22,688 bases of DNA from the IMG/VR virus record IMGVR_UViG_3300023223_000995, positions 1 through 22,688 of that record, one strand, 5' to 3'. A program made the position numbers and the translations under genes. Positions 7,107 through 22,156 of the stretch are shown piece after piece (position 1 is the first letter of the stretch; every line of letters starts with the position of its first letter). Below the pieces are notes generated by a model, which made no database searches, was not told the origin of the DNA, and was given only the letters and a program-made list of their open reading frames with translations. Source of the stretch: a virus.

Positions 7107-8783
7107 ATGGCTTTTGGATTAACTGACGATGGATTTATAAAAAAGACCTTAACGGATATTCTTGCAAAACTTGATGCCGATGTAAAGGCTGTATTTGGGG
7201 CCGCGAATGTGGAGCCCGATTCTGTATTTGGGCAGATGAATGGAATAATCGCTGAAGTGGTTGGGGATTTATGGGACCTTGCTGAATTGACCTATGCTTC
7301 ACAGTATGCACTCAGCGCAAAGGGTGTTTCAATGGATGCCGTTGCGGAACTTAATAATCTGACCAGGCTTGGTGCAACCGCATCAACAGTAAATGCCATT
7401 CTTGAAGGGGATGATTTAACAACCATTCCCCTGGGTACTCAATTCAGGCAAACCGGTACCGATGAAATATTTGCTTCATCATCTGAAATACAGCTTAATT
7501 TGACCACATTATTGAAGGTGGTAATTTCGGTAAATGATTTCGCCACAACCCCCCACACAATTGACATTGTAGGGGATGGGGAAGCCGTATTTTCAAGTTC
7601 TGTCAGTTCCAGTGCCCTGGATGTCCTGAATGACTTTCAGACCCAAATAAACACTGCTGGTAAGCATAACGCCGTTGTGGATGTTTCAGCTGAAACCCTT
7701 ACCATAACAAATCTTGATTTATCTGATATTACAACTTTCGGTATCATAATTGATGCAACTCTTACAATCGATGAACAGTGGTCCCCTGTTTCACTTGCCG
7801 CTTTAAATACCGGTGCAATCGCCGTTCCTTCTAATTCCATCCAGATAATTGAAACTCCTGTTGTGGGCCTTAATGCTGTTGATAATTTGAGTGTTGGAAC
7901 CCAGGGCCGGGATGTGGAAACTGATGATGATTTCAGGCTTCGAAGAAAACAAAGCATCCGGGTGGTTGGGGCCGCTACAGTTCCCGCAATGGAAGCCAGG
8001 TTGGTTGAAGAAATAGTGGAAATAGTGTCTGCTACCGTAAAAGATAACCGGACTGATTTTACAGATGTTGAAGGCAGGCCCCCACATTCTTTTGAAGCCA
8101 TTATAACTTTTTCCCCTGATACCGCTGCAATCCGTCAAATTATCGCGGATAAGATATTTGAAATTAAGCCTGCAGGGATTCAAACATTCGGCACCATTAC
8201 TGAACAGGTATCAGATTCAACCGGGGATCTTCAAACTATTAATTACTCACAGCCCACAAATAAATTCATTCATATCAATGTTGAAATTACCCTGAATCCA
8301 GAGGAAGTTTTCCCTGTCAATGGCCTGGATGCAATTAAAACTGCTCTGGCTGATTTTGGTAATGATCTTAATGCAGGTGAGGATGCAATTATACAAAGGT
8401 TTTTTAATTCTATTTATTCTGTCTCTGGTGTTGAGAATATTGAACTATTTGAATTTGCAACAACCGTAAATCCTGGTGACACACCAACAGTCTTAGATAC
8501 TTCAACAGTAGATAGTAATCCATCAGCTGGTGAATTCGGTATGTCAGGCGCACAGTTAATAACTAATGGTGTTGTAACTGGAATGGTTGTAAAAAAGACA
8601 GGTGGTGTTCCTGCATCATCAGTAAAACAGGTATTATCTGAAACCAATTTCATATCAAAAGATGATGTATTTTTTATAAGTGATGTTTTACAGTTCGGTG
8701 GATTCGGTGATACAAATATAGGAATTGCTGCTAATGAGATTACTAGGTTTGATGAATTAAGGATTGCTGTGGTGATTGTATGA
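7107..8783 (+). CDS. Baseplate J-like wedge protein with C-terminal extension
   Basis: A 558-residue protein with ribosome site AAGGTA at 7096-7101. The N-terminal helical region ('SVFGQMNGIIAEVVGDLWDL'), the 'LNNLTRLGATASTVNAIL' segment, the 'IPLGTQF' strand, the central 'VDNLSVGTQGRDVETDDDFR' stretch with the conserved 'RLRRKQSI', and the late 'INVEITLNPEE' and 'GVENIELF' strands are all typical of baseplate J (Mu gp47, P2 gpJ, T4 gp6 core). It forms the wedge dimer that opens on contraction. After 'SVSGVENIELF' (about residue 448), where many J proteins end, another 105 residues follow, glycine/serine-rich with a short beta-like domain. Base composition becomes visibly more AT-rich there. 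The extension may dock the adhesin cassette encoded just downstream (inference). Confidence 0.9.
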   Translation: MAFGLTDDGFIKKTLTDILAKLDADVKAVFGAANVEPDSVFGQMNGIIAEVVGDLWDLAELTYASQYALSAKGVSMDAVAELNNLTRLGATASTVNAILEGDDLTTIPLGTQFRQTGTDEIFASSSEIQLNLTTLLKVVISVNDFATTPHTIDIVGDGEAVFSSSVSSSALDVLNDFQTQINTAGKHNAVVDVSAETLTITNLDLSDITTFGIIIDATLTIDEQWSPVSLAALNTGAIAVPSNSIQIIETPVVGLNAVDNLSVGTQGRDVETDDDFRLRRKQSIRVVGAATVPAMEARLVEEIVEIVSATVKDNRTDFTDVEGRPPHSFEAIITFSPDTAAIRQIIADKIFEIKPAGIQTFGTITEQVSDSTGDLQTINYSQPTNKFIHINVEITLNPEEVFPVNGLDAIKTALADFGNDLNAGEDAIIQRFFNSIYSVSGVENIELFEFATTVNPGDTPTVLDTSTVDSNPSAGEFGMSGAQLITNGVVTGMVVKKTGGVPASSVKQVLSETNFISKDDVFFISDVLQFGGFGDTNIGIAANEITRFDELRIAVVIV

Positions 8784-15673: not shown

Positions 15674-15882
15674 TGCCAAATTGCAGCAGCTGCCATTCAT
15701 CAATCGAATTAATAAAACGTGGGGGGAGTTGGATTACATTTGATCTTGGTAAAAATAGAATGCATAGTTGTCGCACAAGCCAAAGGGAAAATAAATACAG
15801 ATTAGCTCTGATCAGATACAATGATAGAAAATATGGAAAAGGAAACTCGCAAAACAATCACATCAATCACAACAGAGGATAA
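15673..15882 (+). CDS. Small CxxC zinc-ribbon-like protein
   Basis: A 69-residue protein starting in TGATG. It has C-x-x-C near the start (PNCSSCHSSIELIKRGGSW) followed by a beta turn 'SWITFDLGKNRMHSC', giving C-x2-C-x(n)-H-x-C, the layout of small phage zinc-ribbon proteins that usually end in 'HFATC'. The final third is basic and asparagine/histidine-rich with low complexity. A second protein with the same core plan is encoded at 19168-19350. Function is unknown; a DNA-binding role or a partner of a host protein is possible. Confidence 0.55.
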   Translation: MPNCSSCHSSIELIKRGGSWITFDLGKNRMHSCRTSQRENKYRLALIRYNDRKYGKGNSQNNHINHNRG

Positions 15883-15883
15883 A

Positions 15884-17122
15884 ATGACTGAAGAAAACAT
15901 GATTAAAAAACCATACGAAATTGAACCCCCCCGATTAATTAAAATGCTTATATATGGGCCACCGGGCCTGGGTAAAAGCACCGTTGCACTATCTGCCCCT
16001 TCACCATTATTATTTGATTTTGATGCTGGTATCCACCGGGTACTCGCTAAACATTGGAAGGATACGGTACAGGTCCGGTCCTGGATGGATGTGATTGCTG
16101 TACTCGATGCCAAGCATGGCGATTTGTCAGATCATAAAACATTCATTTTAGATACCGTGAGTAAGCTGCTCGATTTCATGACCGCCTATATTGTAAAGAA
16201 CAATTTAAAAGGTGATGTTAAAAAGGATGGTAATCTCACGTTAAACGGATACGGAACCCGGAAAAGTATGTTTCAACAATTTGTAGCCAGGGTAGGAATG
16301 ATGGGCAAACATCTGATATTTCTTGCACAGGAAGAAGAAAGGGAAGATGAAATTCGGCCAAAGGCAGGCGGTTCATCAGGCCCCGATTTACTTGAACAGC
16401 TGGACCTGGTTGGGCACATGGAAGCCAAAGGTAATGGCCGGGTAATTTCCTTTGAGCCCAATGAAAAATATTACGGTAAAAATTCATGTGGATTGCCTGC
16501 TGAAATGGAACTTCCCGATCCAGAGAAAACAGCAAATAATTTCATGGTAACTGTTTTTGATAAGTATAATGAAAACGCAAATGCCAGTATTGAGATTGCC
16601 AAAGAATATAATATCCTGATGGAAACCGTTGGCAATGATATTGATGAAATCCATGATGCCGATGAAGCGAATGATTTCGTTGCAAAGATAGATGGATACA
16701 CTCACATCTGGGATTCAAAACTTCAGGCATCGAAGGCAATGAAAAAGAAAGCCGCTGCTCTTAATTTAGTGCTTGATGTTGAGAACCGGGTATACAAAAA
16801 CCCTACCAATGATCAGGTTGAGCGCGATAAGGGTAAGGGTACAAAGGCTCAAAATAAAAAAACCACACCAAAGAATAAAAAGACCTCAACAAAAAAAGCC
16901 TCAACAAAAAAGACAGCCTCAAATCCTGGTAAGAAGCCACAGGAAAAAAGTAAACAGGATGAATTCGATGAACTCTGTAAAGCCGCAAAGAAGAACCCCA
17001 ACAAAGATACCATGGGTGCCGTTGATGTATTCTGGAATGCAAATGAAGAAATCCGCAATGAAGCAAACAGTGATATATTAATTGACCTGCAACATGATAT
17101 TCACGATAAGGATGGTAAATAA
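15884..17122 (+). CDS. Sak4-like RecA-fold ATPase (AAA_24), phage recombination protein
   Basis: A 412-residue protein; I chose ATG 15884 because AGAGGA lies five bases upstream and the preceding gene ends at 15882 (an ATG at 15821 would overlap that gene by 62 bases). The ATPase core shows Walker A GPPGLGKS (residues 25-32), Walker B 'TFILDT' (D90), a 'FDFDAG' strand, 'HLIFLAQEEE' and a 'GRVISFEPNEKYYGKNSCGL' region with R/K residues. This fits AAA_24/Sak4 ssDNA-binding nucleotidases used in phage single-strand annealing or strand exchange. The family core is about 230 residues; here helical sequence follows, then a lysine/threonine-rich low-complexity linker (about 305-355), then an acidic helical end. 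No SSB gene is obvious beside it, although Sak4 usually works with one. Confidence 0.82.
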   Translation: MTEENMIKKPYEIEPPRLIKMLIYGPPGLGKSTVALSAPSPLLFDFDAGIHRVLAKHWKDTVQVRSWMDVIAVLDAKHGDLSDHKTFILDTVSKLLDFMTAYIVKNNLKGDVKKDGNLTLNGYGTRKSMFQQFVARVGMMGKHLIFLAQEEEREDEIRPKAGGSSGPDLLEQLDLVGHMEAKGNGRVISFEPNEKYYGKNSCGLPAEMELPDPEKTANNFMVTVFDKYNENANASIEIAKEYNILMETVGNDIDEIHDADEANDFVAKIDGYTHIWDSKLQASKAMKKKAAALNLVLDVENRVYKNPTNDQVERDKGKGTKAQNKKTTPKNKKTSTKKASTKKTASNPGKKPQEKSKQDEFDELCKAAKKNPNKDTMGAVDVFWNANEEIRNEANSDILIDLQHDIHDKDGK

Positions 17123-17846: not shown

Positions 17847-17925
17847 AAGGGTCGGTGGGCTGAGTTTTGTTTAACAATTACTTCACTGTTAAATAAAGAT
17901 TCCTTGGCAGGCCCACCGGCTTTTT
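17847..17925 (+). terminator. Compound hairpin, probable terminator
   Basis: An outer stem pairs GTCGGTGGGCT (17851-17861) with GGCCCACCGGC (17910-17920) over eleven pairs (two G-U), extendable by G-U and A-T pairs into the flanking A and T runs. Its 48-base loop holds a second perfect stem, TTTAACA (17870-17876) with TGTTAAA (17887-17893). TTTTT at 17921-17925 follows. The large loop is unusual for a plain terminator and could make it partial or regulated. It begins right after the stop codon at 17844-17846, and no promoter is obvious downstream, so some read-through is likely. Confidence 0.65.
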
Positions 17926-17936
17926 AAAGGTAAATT

Positions 17937-18287
17937 ATGACTCACGATTTCACAGACCATAAATTCAAACAGGATACTTTATTCGGTGATAAGAAACTGA
18001 ATCAGAATTTCCGGCATTCAGATCCACCATCAAGTAAATTAGCCGGGGAAACTATTCACCGTTCAGGCAAGTCAAACAGTCAACGGCATGTTCTGGAATA
18101 CCTGGTTAGAAAGTATCCGGGGAAAACATCAAAGGAATTGGAATCACTTGCCATTCAAAAAGAACCGTTGTTGTTGAGGCTTACCCATACTCAGATTGGA
18201 AAGCGTGTTCATGAAATGGATCTGGTTGTATATGATACATCGGTTATCAAACTGGATAACTGTCACCCTATAAATTTAAAGGATTAA
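17937..18287 (+). CDS. Winged-helix-like phage protein, unknown role
   Basis: A 116-residue protein with AAAGGT upstream of ATG 17937. Residues 1-45 are polar and probably flexible. Residues about 48-105 ('SQRHVLEYLVRKYPGKTSKE', 'LTHTQIGKRVHEMDLVVYDT') have the layout of the small winged-helix domain often seen in phage proteins (VL..L...P..T..EL ... R.R.L...GLV). A role in replication or transcription control is plausible, but no partner is known. The Dam methyltransferase gene follows after two bases. Confidence 0.6.
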   Translation: MTHDFTDHKFKQDTLFGDKKLNQNFRHSDPPSSKLAGETIHRSGKSNSQRHVLEYLVRKYPGKTSKELESLAIQKEPLLLRLTHTQIGKRVHEMDLVVYDTSVIKLDNCHPINLKD

Positions 18288-18289
18288 AA

Positions 18290-18778
18290 ATGAGCGCAAC
18301 AGCACCCCGGAGTAAATCCACTACAAAACAGGACTATGGTACAGATCCAAAATTCTGGAAAATATTAAATGACCGGTTTGATTTTCAATGGGATTTGGCT
18401 TGTACCAGAGAAAATTGTTTAGTGAGGTCAATTACTGGTGCTGCTGTTGGCTACTGGCACCCAGAATACGATGCATTTAAATTTGATTGGCATGAAAAAG
18501 ATGGCTGGCTTTATCTGAATCCACCATACAAAGACATCAAACCCTGGGCAAAAAAATGTTATGAGGAGAGCCTGAAGGGTGCTAAAATTGTATTGCTTAC
18601 CCCTGCCAGCGTTGGATCTGTTTGGTTTGCTGAATGGATACATAACAGAGCCCATGTTTTATTTCTGAAAGGGCGGCTTACATTTGCCGGTGAAACTGCA
18701 CCCTACCCAAAGGATTGCATGATTTCAATATTTGATAATTTTCACAGGGGAATGGATATCTGGGATTGGAGAATATAA
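18290..18778 (+). CDS. DNA N6-adenine methyltransferase, Dam-type phage family (PF05869)
   Basis: A 162-residue protein with AAAGGA before ATG 18290. It has the phage Dam layout: 'KQDYGTDPKFWKILNDRFDF' near the start, 'QWDLACTREN' next, the catalytic motif NPPY at residues 77-80 ('GWLYLNPPYKDIKPWAKKC'), 'AKIVLLTPASVGSVWFAEWI' and 'HVLFLKGRLTFAGET'. The length is that of the family. It transfers a methyl group from S-adenosylmethionine to adenine N6 in DNA, often to shield phage DNA from host restriction; the target site cannot be read from sequence. There is no cognate restriction gene nearby, so it is an orphan enzyme. Confidence 0.9.
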   Translation: MSATAPRSKSTTKQDYGTDPKFWKILNDRFDFQWDLACTRENCLVRSITGAAVGYWHPEYDAFKFDWHEKDGWLYLNPPYKDIKPWAKKCYEESLKGAKIVLLTPASVGSVWFAEWIHNRAHVLFLKGRLTFAGETAPYPKDCMISIFDNFHRGMDIWDWRI

Positions 18779-20015: not shown

Positions 20016-20373
20016 TATGGTGACTGAAAAAGAAATTATGATCCAAATCCCTGATCCCAACATGAGGCAATTCTCAAATCAAGGCCCATACTTTATTGAT
20101 GCGATACCCAAGGAATTGCTGCTTCTTGAACTCAGGATTGATTGTTTATGCATGAGAAATTTGGAATTGGAAATATACCAGGATTTAAAATATTACATGC
20201 GAACTCTCAAAAAGCTGGCTCTGGATAAGGGACTTCAAATCAGAACATTTCATGACTTTGTATCTGGGGAATTTGTTTACACTTTTGAAAAAGGGGAATC
20301 GCCTCCCCTGGCAGTACCGGATGTGGTGCTGAAACCCACAATCGACAAATCCGGTACTGCTTCGAATCAATGA
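20005..20373 (+). CDS. Small early protein, unknown
   Basis: A 122-residue protein if GTG 20005 is used (GGAG at 19995-19998, six bases before); ATG at 20017 is the alternative, four residues shorter and with a poor spacing from AGGTGA. The middle is helical ('LLLELRIDCLCMRNLELEIY', 'YMRTLKKLALDKG'), the end is proline-rich. I recognise no family. It overlaps the HTH gene after it by ATGA. Confidence 0.55.
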   Translation: MVGDMVTEKEIMIQIPDPNMRQFSNQGPYFIDAIPKELLLLELRIDCLCMRNLELEIYQDLKYYMRTLKKLALDKGLQIRTFHDFVSGEFVYTFEKGESPPLAVPDVVLKPTIDKSGTASNQ

Positions 20374-20585
20374 TGGAAAAAGCGAAATCAATTAAAATCT
20401 TAAAGCTGCTTAGAGAACTGCAGGCAACCCGGTATGGCATTTCAACCTTTACCCTTTGCTCAAAATACGAATTTTGCCCCAGAACCCTGAAGCGGTACCT
20501 GAAGGATTTTAGGGTTGCCGGGTATGATGTTCAAAATCTGGCTGTGGGTGTCAATAATGTGGGGGTATGGAAAATTGATTTGTAA
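20370..20585 (+). CDS. HTH DNA-binding protein, small
   Basis: A 71-residue basic protein, ATG 20370 in an ATGA overlap (a second ATG follows in frame at 20373). Helices at about 8-20 ('KILKLLRELQATR') and 22-50 ('GISTFTLCSKYEFCPRTLKR', 'YLKDFRVAGYDV') have the order of a DeoR/HTH_11-like winged helix, with 'CPRTLKRYLKDF' as likely recognition helix. It is encoded directly before the putative origin at 20591-20630 and might act there (inference). Confidence 0.65.
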   Translation: MMEKAKSIKILKLLRELQATRYGISTFTLCSKYEFCPRTLKRYLKDFRVAGYDVQNLAVGVNNVGVWKIDL

Positions 20586-20590
20586 ACATT

Positions 20591-20630
20591 TTATTCACAA
20601 TCTATCCACAGAAATTATTTTAAAATAAAA
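20591..20630. other. Putative replication origin: two DnaA-box-like sites plus AT-rich stretch
   Basis: TTATTCACA (20591-20599) fits the DnaA-box consensus TTWTNCACA, and CTATCCACA (20602-20610) differs from TTATCCACA by one base. They are in the same direction, 11 bases apart, about one helix turn. An A/T-only stretch (20614-20630) follows. The site lies in a non-coding gap upstream of a replication-type gene. This layout fits an origin where host DnaA helps, but two boxes in an AT-rich region could be chance. Confidence 0.45.
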
Positions 20631-20680
20631 CTTTGACGTTGCTGATTATTAATACAGTTTATTCAATACCTTTAAATTTC

Positions 20681-20793
20681 AAACAGCTATGAAATCCAAA
20701 ATAAAAAATTAAACGTCCTTACCCGGTTCCCGCTAGCGTAAGATATCGGGCCTGCTTTTGCATAGCTGTTTAACAGGAAGTAACTGGGTAAGG
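20681..20793 (+). promoter_or_regulatory. Interleaved inverted repeats forming a possible pseudoknot leader
   Basis: Two inverted repeats are interlocked. A: AAACAGCTATG (20681-20691) with CATAGCTGTTT (20761-20771), eleven perfect pairs. B: CCTTACCCGGTT (20717-20728) with AACTGGGTAAGG (20782-20793), twelve pairs with one G-U. The order A-B-A'-B' is a pseudoknot if transcribed. B' contains the AAGG that lies upstream of the start codon at 20806. CTTAC in the left arm of B (20718-20722) has an alternative partner, GTAAG at 20738-20742. The element may control translation of the replication gene, or act as DNA at the origin. Confidence 0.5.
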
Positions 20794-20805
20794 GCACAGG
20801 TCTTT

Positions 20806-21582
20806 ATGGCAAGAACAGCGAGAAACGATGTTGATTACTTCCCGCATAAAGTAGATCACGGTCGCAAAATGTATATCATCCGGGAGAAATACAAAAATGA
20901 TGGATATGCTGTATGGTTCGGGCTACTTGAAGAATTGGGGAAGGCTGATTATCACTATTTGAATTTATCAGATGATACTCAAATAATGTATTTATCGGCC
21001 CTTCTTATGGTAACAGAGCAGAATCTGTTAAATATAATTGCTGACCTGGTAAAGCTTGGTGAATTTGATGAAGAATTCTGGAAGAATGGGAAGATTCTTT
21101 TCAATGAACATTTTTGTAAAGAAATTTCAGATGCCTATGCAAAGCGTGCGAATTCGGTAATTACCAGATCCGGTTTATTCCAGAAGTTAACGGATAAAGG
21201 GATACTTAATGGGCAATTAGGGATGAGTCTATTGGATAACCGGGGTCAATCCGGTGGAATCAATTCACATACTATAGTAAAGGATACTATAGAAGAGGAT
21301 AGTAAAGAATATATTACCGCCTTTGATAAGTTCTGGAATATTTACCCAAAAAGAAAAGGTAAAAAGGTTGGCAAACAAAATGCATTTAAGAATTTCAAGA
21401 AAATCCCCATTGAATCCCTTCCCAGAGTAATCAAAAATGCGGGTAATTATGGCATAAATAATGATTATGCGAAAGACCCGGAAAGGTTTCTGAAGAATGA
21501 TTTCTGGAAAGATTGGGATGAACCGCCTGAAAAGCCATTAACACTTGAACAGAAAGCGGAGGCTCGTTTTGGCAAAGATTAA
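20806..21582 (+). CDS. Phage replication initiation-like protein (DUF4373 / Lin1244-Lin1753 N-terminal type)
   Basis: A 258-residue protein. ATG 20806 has CAGG (20797-20800) at five bases and AAGGG farther up; an in-frame TTG at 20758 lies in the repeat arm and is rejected. Residues 1-115 fit the DUF4373 plan: 'VDYFPHKVDHGRKMYIIREK', 'DGYAVWFGLLEELGKADYHY' and a following helical winged-helix core ending 'EISDAYAKRANSV'. This domain is found in replication or DnaD-like proteins of phages. After a linker, residues about 180-245 ('ITAFDKFWNIYPKRKGKKVG', 'KQNAFKNFKKI', 'DPERFLKNDFWKDW') are the 'F-xxYP-K-gK--A---w' C-terminal module common in phage replication proteins, next to helicase loading. 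Position beside the putative origin supports the call. Confidence 0.8.
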   Translation: MARTARNDVDYFPHKVDHGRKMYIIREKYKNDGYAVWFGLLEELGKADYHYLNLSDDTQIMYLSALLMVTEQNLLNIIADLVKLGEFDEEFWKNGKILFNEHFCKEISDAYAKRANSVITRSGLFQKLTDKGILNGQLGMSLLDNRGQSGGINSHTIVKDTIEEDSKEYITAFDKFWNIYPKRKGKKVGKQNAFKNFKKIPIESLPRVIKNAGNYGINNDYAKDPERFLKNDFWKDWDEPPEKPLTLEQKAEARFGKD

Positions 21583-22156
21583 TCTAAACAGCTTAATCCC
21601 CCAGGAAATCAAAAAAATGGCCCTTCGATACCGAAAGGAATATTCAGATGAAAAAATTCTGGATATGGCAGAAGTAACAGCCGGTGTCTTGAAGTACGTT
21701 CCCTCAGAACGCATAGCGGAGCTATTTGACGCGGCCTGTTCTGGCTCCCAGTATTTGCCAGATGATTTCAAGTTGCTTAAAACGTGGGGCCTGCTGAAAG
21801 GCAAGGGCAAATCTGTTGGGTACTATGACCATTGGGGAATTTGGGTAAGGGATGGATCGTATTATACCTGGATGACCTGCCCTGGTGGTGAGTGGATAAT
21901 TGCCGCTGATTTTGGTGAATGGGAACTCAGAACCCGGAACCGGTTGGGCCTTCTCAAAGAATCCCATCAGGAGAATTGGTACAGCCTACTCTCGAAGAAA
22001 TTCTTTGTGGGAAAGGGCCAGATCCAAAAACCCCGGCATGAATGGGACCATGAAGATAATGGTTTTCAGGCCCGGTTTAATACAGATTATGAAGAATTGG
22101 TTGCCAGCCATAAAAAGCTGGTGGAACGTCTTGAATCACAAGTGAGGAAAAAATGA
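21569..22156 (+). CDS. Protein of unknown function, TTG start
   Basis: A 195-residue protein. I chose TTG 21569 because GGAGG (21558-21562) lies six bases before it; it overlaps the replication gene by 14 bases. A TTG at 21545 has no ribosome site. The first third is helical ('LIPQEIKKMALRYRKEYSDE', 'VLKYVPSERIAELFDAACSG'). The middle is a beta-rich, tryptophan-rich part ('YDHWGIWVRDGSYYTWMTCP', 'GGEWIIAADFGEWELRTRNR'), and the end is charged and helical. I recognise no family. Directly after a replication protein one expects a helicase loader or helicase, but no Walker motifs are seen. Confidence 0.7.
   Translation: MAKINLNSLIPQEIKKMALRYRKEYSDEKILDMAEVTAGVLKYVPSERIAELFDAACSGSQYLPDDFKLLKTWGLLKGKGKSVGYYDHWGIWVRDGSYYTWMTCPGGEWIIAADFGEWELRTRNRLGLLKESHQENWYSLLSKKFFVGKGQIQKPRHEWDHEDNGFQARFNTDYEELVASHKKLVERLESQVRKK

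Follow-up and report, generated by a model that had tools for sequence, protein, structure and literature searches.

A covarying pseudoknot in the leader of a viral replication-initiator gene

Introduction

What is the role of two long, interlocked inverted repeats that lie directly upstream of a viral replication gene? The repeats occur in a virus record from IMG/VR that is 22,688 bases long (the window, meaning the whole stretch of DNA analyzed here), in which the replication module comes after a tail module. An earlier note on this DNA, made from the sequence alone, had proposed that they form a pseudoknot that serves as a translational or copy-control switch, or else an origin cruciform.

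Control of initiator leaders by RNA pseudoknots is known from a few plasmids. In I-complex plasmids, initiator synthesis is under the control of a pseudoknot and of leader-peptide translation (PMC10286972, PMC8383071). A covarying knot before a phage replication gene, with similar ones before others, would suggest that the device is more widespread and has arisen more than once. Phage leaders of this kind would be small, directly testable systems for studying RNA control over the initiation of phage DNA replication.

Results

The Leader Precedes a DUF4373-Type Replication Gene

Profile searches bore out the assignment of the gene that starts at ATG 20806 as a DUF4373-type replication gene (rep): its product contains a Lin1244_N domain (46.8 bits, against a Pfam gathering cut-off of 25) and matches phrog_2562, "replication initiation protein," with an E value of 3.7e-19. 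A search for close homologues of Rep returned distant homologues in IMG/VR (two) and among phages (one), and none in GTDB or in plasmids; the 72,556 plasmids searched contained no Rep match and no significant match to the leader. The features of the locus are listed in Table 1.

Table 1. Features of the leader and its surroundings in the window
Feature	Position	Strand	Basis or remark
Sak4-like gene	15821-17122		window replication module
Dam	18290-18778		window replication module
Small gene upstream of leader	20370-20585		L008 orthologue is an HTH protein
Two DnaA-box-like sites in tandem, TTATTCACA + CTATCCACA	20591..20610	+	motif match; starts 20591 and 20602
Probable promoter region, CTTTGA + AATACAGTTTATTCA	20631..20665	+	kept in L008 (alignment); putative role
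Arm A, 5' arm of pseudoknot helix, AAACAGCTATG	20681-20691	+	pairing and covariation; last bases are the leader-ORF ATG
Leader ORF, 7 codons, MKSKIKN	20689..20712	+	stop 2 nt 5' of P1
5' arm of P1 (B plus 2 outer pairs)	20715-20728	+	pairing, folding, covariation
Hairpin P2 (CCCG/CGGG), adjoining P1	20729..20750	+	MFE; sequence not kept in L008
Weak hairpin P3 (CCUG/CAGG), loop CUUUUG + A'	20751..20777	+	MFE fold
Arm A', 3' arm of pseudoknot helix, CATAGCTGTTT	20761-20771	+	pairing and covariation
3' arm of P1 (B' extended)	20782-20795	+	pairing, folding, covariation; ends 10 nt 5' of ATG 20806
AGG, only SD-like triplet at usual ATG spacing	20798..20800	+	outside P1; putative role
Replication-initiator gene, Lin1244_N / PF14297 (DUF4373)	20806..21582	+	Pfam and PHROG matches

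Two observations concern other parts of the window. The Sak4-like ATPase matches, with 46% identity, gp36 of Bacteroides phage BS-TP3 (L007, PQ571276.1, 7885-9852), and the annotation of gp36 as "terminase large subunit" is, judging from this match, probably a misannotation. An inverted repeat of ~15 pairs with a 40-nt loop and TTTTT at its end (17850-17921) lies just 5' of an ORF at 17937.

The Interlocked Repeats Exceed Shuffled Controls

The two repeats are present in the order A-B-A'-B', as had been claimed. A and A' form 11 perfect pairs; the core of B (CCTTACCCGGTT, 20717-20728) and B' (AACTGGGTAAGG, 20782-20793) form 12 pairs with one G-U (20725-20785), and outward extension gives the 14-pair helix P1. 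The helix energies are about -13.6 kcal/mol for A/A' and about -22.4 kcal/mol for P1. The nested fold is a three-way arrangement in which P1 encloses P2 and P3, and A' lies in the P3 loop, free to pair with A on the 5' side of P1. P2 is made of CCCG (20729-20732) and CGGG (20747-20750), which the earlier note had suggested as a further small stem. The 11-pair A/A' helix and P3 may be unable to coexist, in which case the nested fold would be one state of the leader and the pseudoknot another. A second partner, GTAAG, had also been proposed for CTTAC in the left arm of B, giving two exclusive folds. Both motifs are in place in the window, and their pairing is transient, being seen on folding a transcript cut at 20745, but the GTAAG between the P1 arms is absent in the relative described below.

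In the window, the leader is the top interlocked pair on either strand. Its interlocked score is 58; in 2000 dinucleotide shuffles of this 131-nt stretch, scores averaged 30.1 (sd 3.3) and peaked at 45, and none reached 58. The leader also ranked 1st of the 2122 upstream regions scored, which belong to ORFs no shorter than 80 codons in the window and in roughly 80 related phage loci. Scanning all loci for interlocks with no constraint imposed proved too permissive to be useful. Nested folding exceeded shuffles on the + strand (z = -2.6; - strand, z = -0.8). The shuffled controls bear out the view that such an arrangement is unlikely to arise by chance.

A Syntenic Relative Preserves the Knot with Different Letters

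Scanning IMG/VR with a Sak4 profile yielded 72 loci, among them L008, which is syntenic with the window (Sak4 56%, Dam 70%, and the upstream HTH gene 46% identical). In L008 the HTH gene is followed by a homologous intergenic region with a leader at 7926-8045. The gene after that leader is a different one, encoding a 239 aa protein (phrog_29280) with no detectable similarity to Rep of the window. A Dam scan for further relatives returned L008 again and nothing else, and a Sak4 search of GTDB gave no match.

L008 provided an out-of-sample test of the pseudoknot. MAFFT misaligned the 3' half of the leaders, and so the arms were aligned on the conserved anchors CTATGAAA, CTTACCC, and GGGTAAG, and pairs were counted. 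In this comparison of two sequences, all 20 comparable pairs are kept, and nine of them are changed on both sides (5/7 in A/A' and 4/13 in P1), so that the prediction of a pseudoknot in the earlier note passed in one relative. From the window to L008, the swaps in A/A' are G-C to A-U, A-U to G-C, A-U to C-G, and, twice, A-U to U-A. When the partners were slid by 1-3 columns, paired cells fell to 28-50%, and neither genome's A arm finds anything to pair with in the other's loop. When the anchor sets the arm, the 8-bp A/A' complement of L008 appears in 101 of 200,000 loop shuffles.

The L008 leader region folds with z -4.5, and its top interlocked pair is exactly the homologous one, with a score that 0/2000 shuffles reach. 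At the position of P2, L008 has another hairpin of different sequence, and P3 corresponds to a 7-pair hairpin whose loop likewise includes CUUUUG and A'. The eight central pairs of P1 are identical in the two genomes, in contrast to the rest of both helices, which suggests from the alignment an extra constraint on sequence. Interlocked helices with compensatory change are the mark of an RNA pseudoknot, and all nine double changes remain paired. Because the same knot is kept with different letters in a distant phage, the covarying pseudoknot RNA is, on this comparative evidence, almost certainly real.

Searches with the leader DNA pattern gave other matches that we set aside, six being unrelated by inspection (L081, L083, and L085-L088) and one (L082) most likely due to chance. 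AAACAGCTATG resembles the lacZ start region; vector sequence is an unlikely source, given that the arm of L008 at this position differs.

P1 Ends Close to the Start Codon and Follows a Short Leader ORF

The AAGG within B' had been taken as the ribosome site of the replication gene. This AAGG is 12 nt 5' of ATG 20806, as against about 5-7 nt between the SD-like motifs of other window genes and their ATG, and L008 reads AAGA there; given this spacing and lack of conservation, it is probably not the Shine-Dalgarno sequence, and P1 of the window contains no SD. The distance from the end of P1 to the ATG is nearly the same in the two genomes (10 nt in the window and 9 nt in L008).

Between A and P1, the window has a leader ORF (ATG AAA TCC AAA ATA AAA AAT TAA), and L008 has one of 7 codons at the same place (ATG AAA AAC CCA AAA CAA ATT TAA), the stop of which adjoins P1. 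Both ORFs start at A and stop 0-2 nt before B. The leader ORF has no clear SD, and its peptide is not shared by the two genomes; with an A-rich linker besides, the ORF is possibly a coincidence. The kept geometry in both genomes is nevertheless suggestive, and coupling of the leader ORF to rep expression is a tentative reading, to which we give somewhat less than an even chance.

Folding predictions fit an ordered assembly. In MFE folds of growing transcripts, A/A' had formed at 20771 and P1 at 20795. Blocking the leader-ORF stop region in silico raised the mean unpairedness of the rep start from 0.26 to 0.35, a modest effect.

Sequences Upstream of the Leader

The two leaders are each preceded by the same AATACAGTTTATT (20651-20665 in the window and about 7893-7907 in L008), with CTTTGA about 20 nt before it, and from this conservation the region is probably a promoter or operator. 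Within the leader, no antisense promoter of the sigma-70 type was detected, with the reservation that the consensus may not be that of the host. The DnaA-box-like pair comprises the window's only exact TTATNCACA and a one-mismatch site, and its counterparts in L008 are degenerate. These sites make a possible origin before the leader, as motifs go, and the origin features are weak: no iteron array was found near the initiator gene, with only scattered two-copy repeats in 20500-21700. The window also has seven CTTACCCGG-like sites (at most 1 mismatch), including 16438, 19324, 20518, 20718, and 20784, mostly on the - strand.

Interlocked Leaders Precede Some Other Phage Replication Genes

With the same scoring, leaders of DUF6291 (PF19808) genes were near the top of the ranking. 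Interlocked leaders were found in L026 (11 + 10 pairs), in L039 and its relative L019 (9 + 9 pairs in L039, in the same order as in the window), and in L064/L065 (8 + 8 pairs, GAGG in the 3' arm). A tblastn follow-up added Nitratiruptor phage NrS-3 (L095, 1390-1500), whose DUF6291 gene has a leader of 17 + 10 pairs (z = 10) with AAGGA in the last arm, 1 nt before the ATG, so that the knot lies over the Shine-Dalgarno sequence. The 3' arm contains an SD-like motif in NrS-3, L064, and L026, and an ORF that starts with ATG crosses the knot and ends at +10 of rep in NrS-3, +10 in L039, and +3 in L064. The NrS-3 ORF has 35 codons. In the paper that describes these Nitratiruptor phages, neither pseudoknot nor leader occurs as a word in the main text (PMC9723563).

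L026 and L039 were picked out by their own scores, and selection bias is absent only from the finds made later. Most related replication genes have no interlocked leader: none of 13 further Lin1244/DUF6291-type genes, fetched regardless of leader, reaches z = 2. We rejected the generalization that all Lin1244/DUF6291 genes have such a leader, finding no convincing interlock in L091-L094 and L096-L098. In two of these, the DUF6291 genes of prophage-like contigs (L092 and L093), a long plain hairpin (CTTTG..GCCCTC/GAGGGC..CAAAG), similar in both, lies just upstream of 2501. These interlocked leaders, which differ in sequence from that of the window, appear to be recurrent, possibly convergent, and not one family.

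Discussion

We favor, with moderate confidence, the interpretation that the region is a cis-acting leader of the replication-initiator mRNA whose pseudoknot limits translation of the initiator, a reading that draws on the position of the knot and on analogy. The switch suggested in the earlier note is plausible, and the SD-like 3' arms of NrS-3, L064, and L026 are consistent with it, but for the window it is still conjectural. During transcription, A/A' could form first, because both of its arms emerge before the 3' arm of P1. P1 would then close over sequence flanking the rep start site on its 5' side, hindering the 30S subunit; the end of P1 lies within the space that a 30S subunit requires. 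We are less sure of what follows. A ribosome starting the 7-codon leader ORF would cover arm A, and one stopping 2 nt upstream would reach into the 5' arm of P1; through this overlap, translation of the leader would help to open the rep start site. The last is the least certain step, given how modestly the rep start was freed in silico.

Other explanations account for part of the evidence. Inverted repeats of this size do arise by chance somewhere in genomes of this length, but an arrangement without function is hardly credible beside nine double changes in a syntenic relative and the failure of every shuffle in each of two genomes. The repeats might instead act at the level of DNA, as binding sites or a cruciform at an operator or origin recognized by a DNA-binding protein. 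The DnaA-box-like sites upstream, and the CTTACCCGG-like sites (7 in the window versus 1.8 expected from shuffles), would fit that account, which we nevertheless regard as improbable: complementarity is kept while sequence has changed, in interlocked arms 50-70 nt apart, there are no iterons, and only the + strand folds better than shuffles. The origin cruciform of the earlier note is accordingly not favored, the compensatory changes in interlocked arms being what an RNA pseudoknot predicts.

Two accounts keep the RNA and change what it responds to. A replication protein, or another phage protein, could bind the pseudoknot and repress its own translation. Such autogenous control has a phage precedent in gene 32 of T4 and RB69 (PMC535899), where gp32 of T4 acts in this way, and the central 8 pairs of P1 (CTTACCCG/CYGGGTAAG) are unchanged, as a recognized sequence would be. 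The proteins downstream of the leader in the window and L008, however, have no detectable similarity, so that retention of an operator specific to Rep would be unexpected, and we consider this account unlikely, if less so than a DNA-level element. The leader might also be a ligand-binding riboswitch or self-cleaving ribozyme of an undescribed class. Multi-helix pseudoknots are compatible with that, as are the short unpaired CTATGAAA and CTTTTG common to the two leaders; against it, the leaders share little conserved unpaired core, and the Rfam 15 covariance models gave no riboswitch or ribozyme family at the gathering threshold or in a permissive search, in agreement with the earlier failure to recognize a known core. 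Replication genes of phages are also not known as common targets of riboswitches, and we judge this possibility very unlikely.

A translational control leader working like the plasmid repZ/repA pseudoknots, perhaps coupled to the leader ORF, is by analogy the best reading. A broader proposal is that leader-ORF-coupled pseudoknots are a recurring, undescribed control of initiator dose in phages of unrelated hosts (the window's group, the DUF6291 phages, and the Campylobacterota phage NrS-3), convergent with plasmid copy control. We offer it as a speculation that is more probably wrong than right.

The leader can be set against several known systems. Like the I-complex repZ/repA genes (IncI-alpha ColIb-P9 repY-repZ; IncB and IncL/M repB-repA), the window has a pseudoknot in the leader of a replication initiator near the start site, and a leader ORF in the same region (PMC10286972, PMC8383071). 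It differs from them in host and initiator family, and no sequence homology was found; its leader ORF has 7 codons and ends before P1, and in the plasmids the pseudoknot activates translation and an antisense RNA blocks it. The T4/RB69 gene 32 operator is likewise a phage leader pseudoknot 5' of the initiation region of a replication gene (PMC535899), but it measures about 28 nt and is followed by an unstructured SD region, whereas the helices of the window, of 11 + 14 pairs, span about 115 nt and end 10 nt from the ATG. The H-type pseudoknot riboswitches SAM-II and preQ1-II share the A-B-A'-B' order and a 3' helix near the start codon; the window leader has longer helices, an internal three-way junction, another gene context, and no Rfam match. 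The undescribed NrS-3 leader also places long interlocked helices directly before a phage replication-type gene, but it is not homologous, its 3' arm contains the SD and touches the ATG, and its ORF crosses the knot. The leader is therefore new as a sequence family (not in Rfam 15) and known as a kind of device, for which the nearest working model would be I-complex repZ/repA and, among phages, the T4 gene 32 operator.
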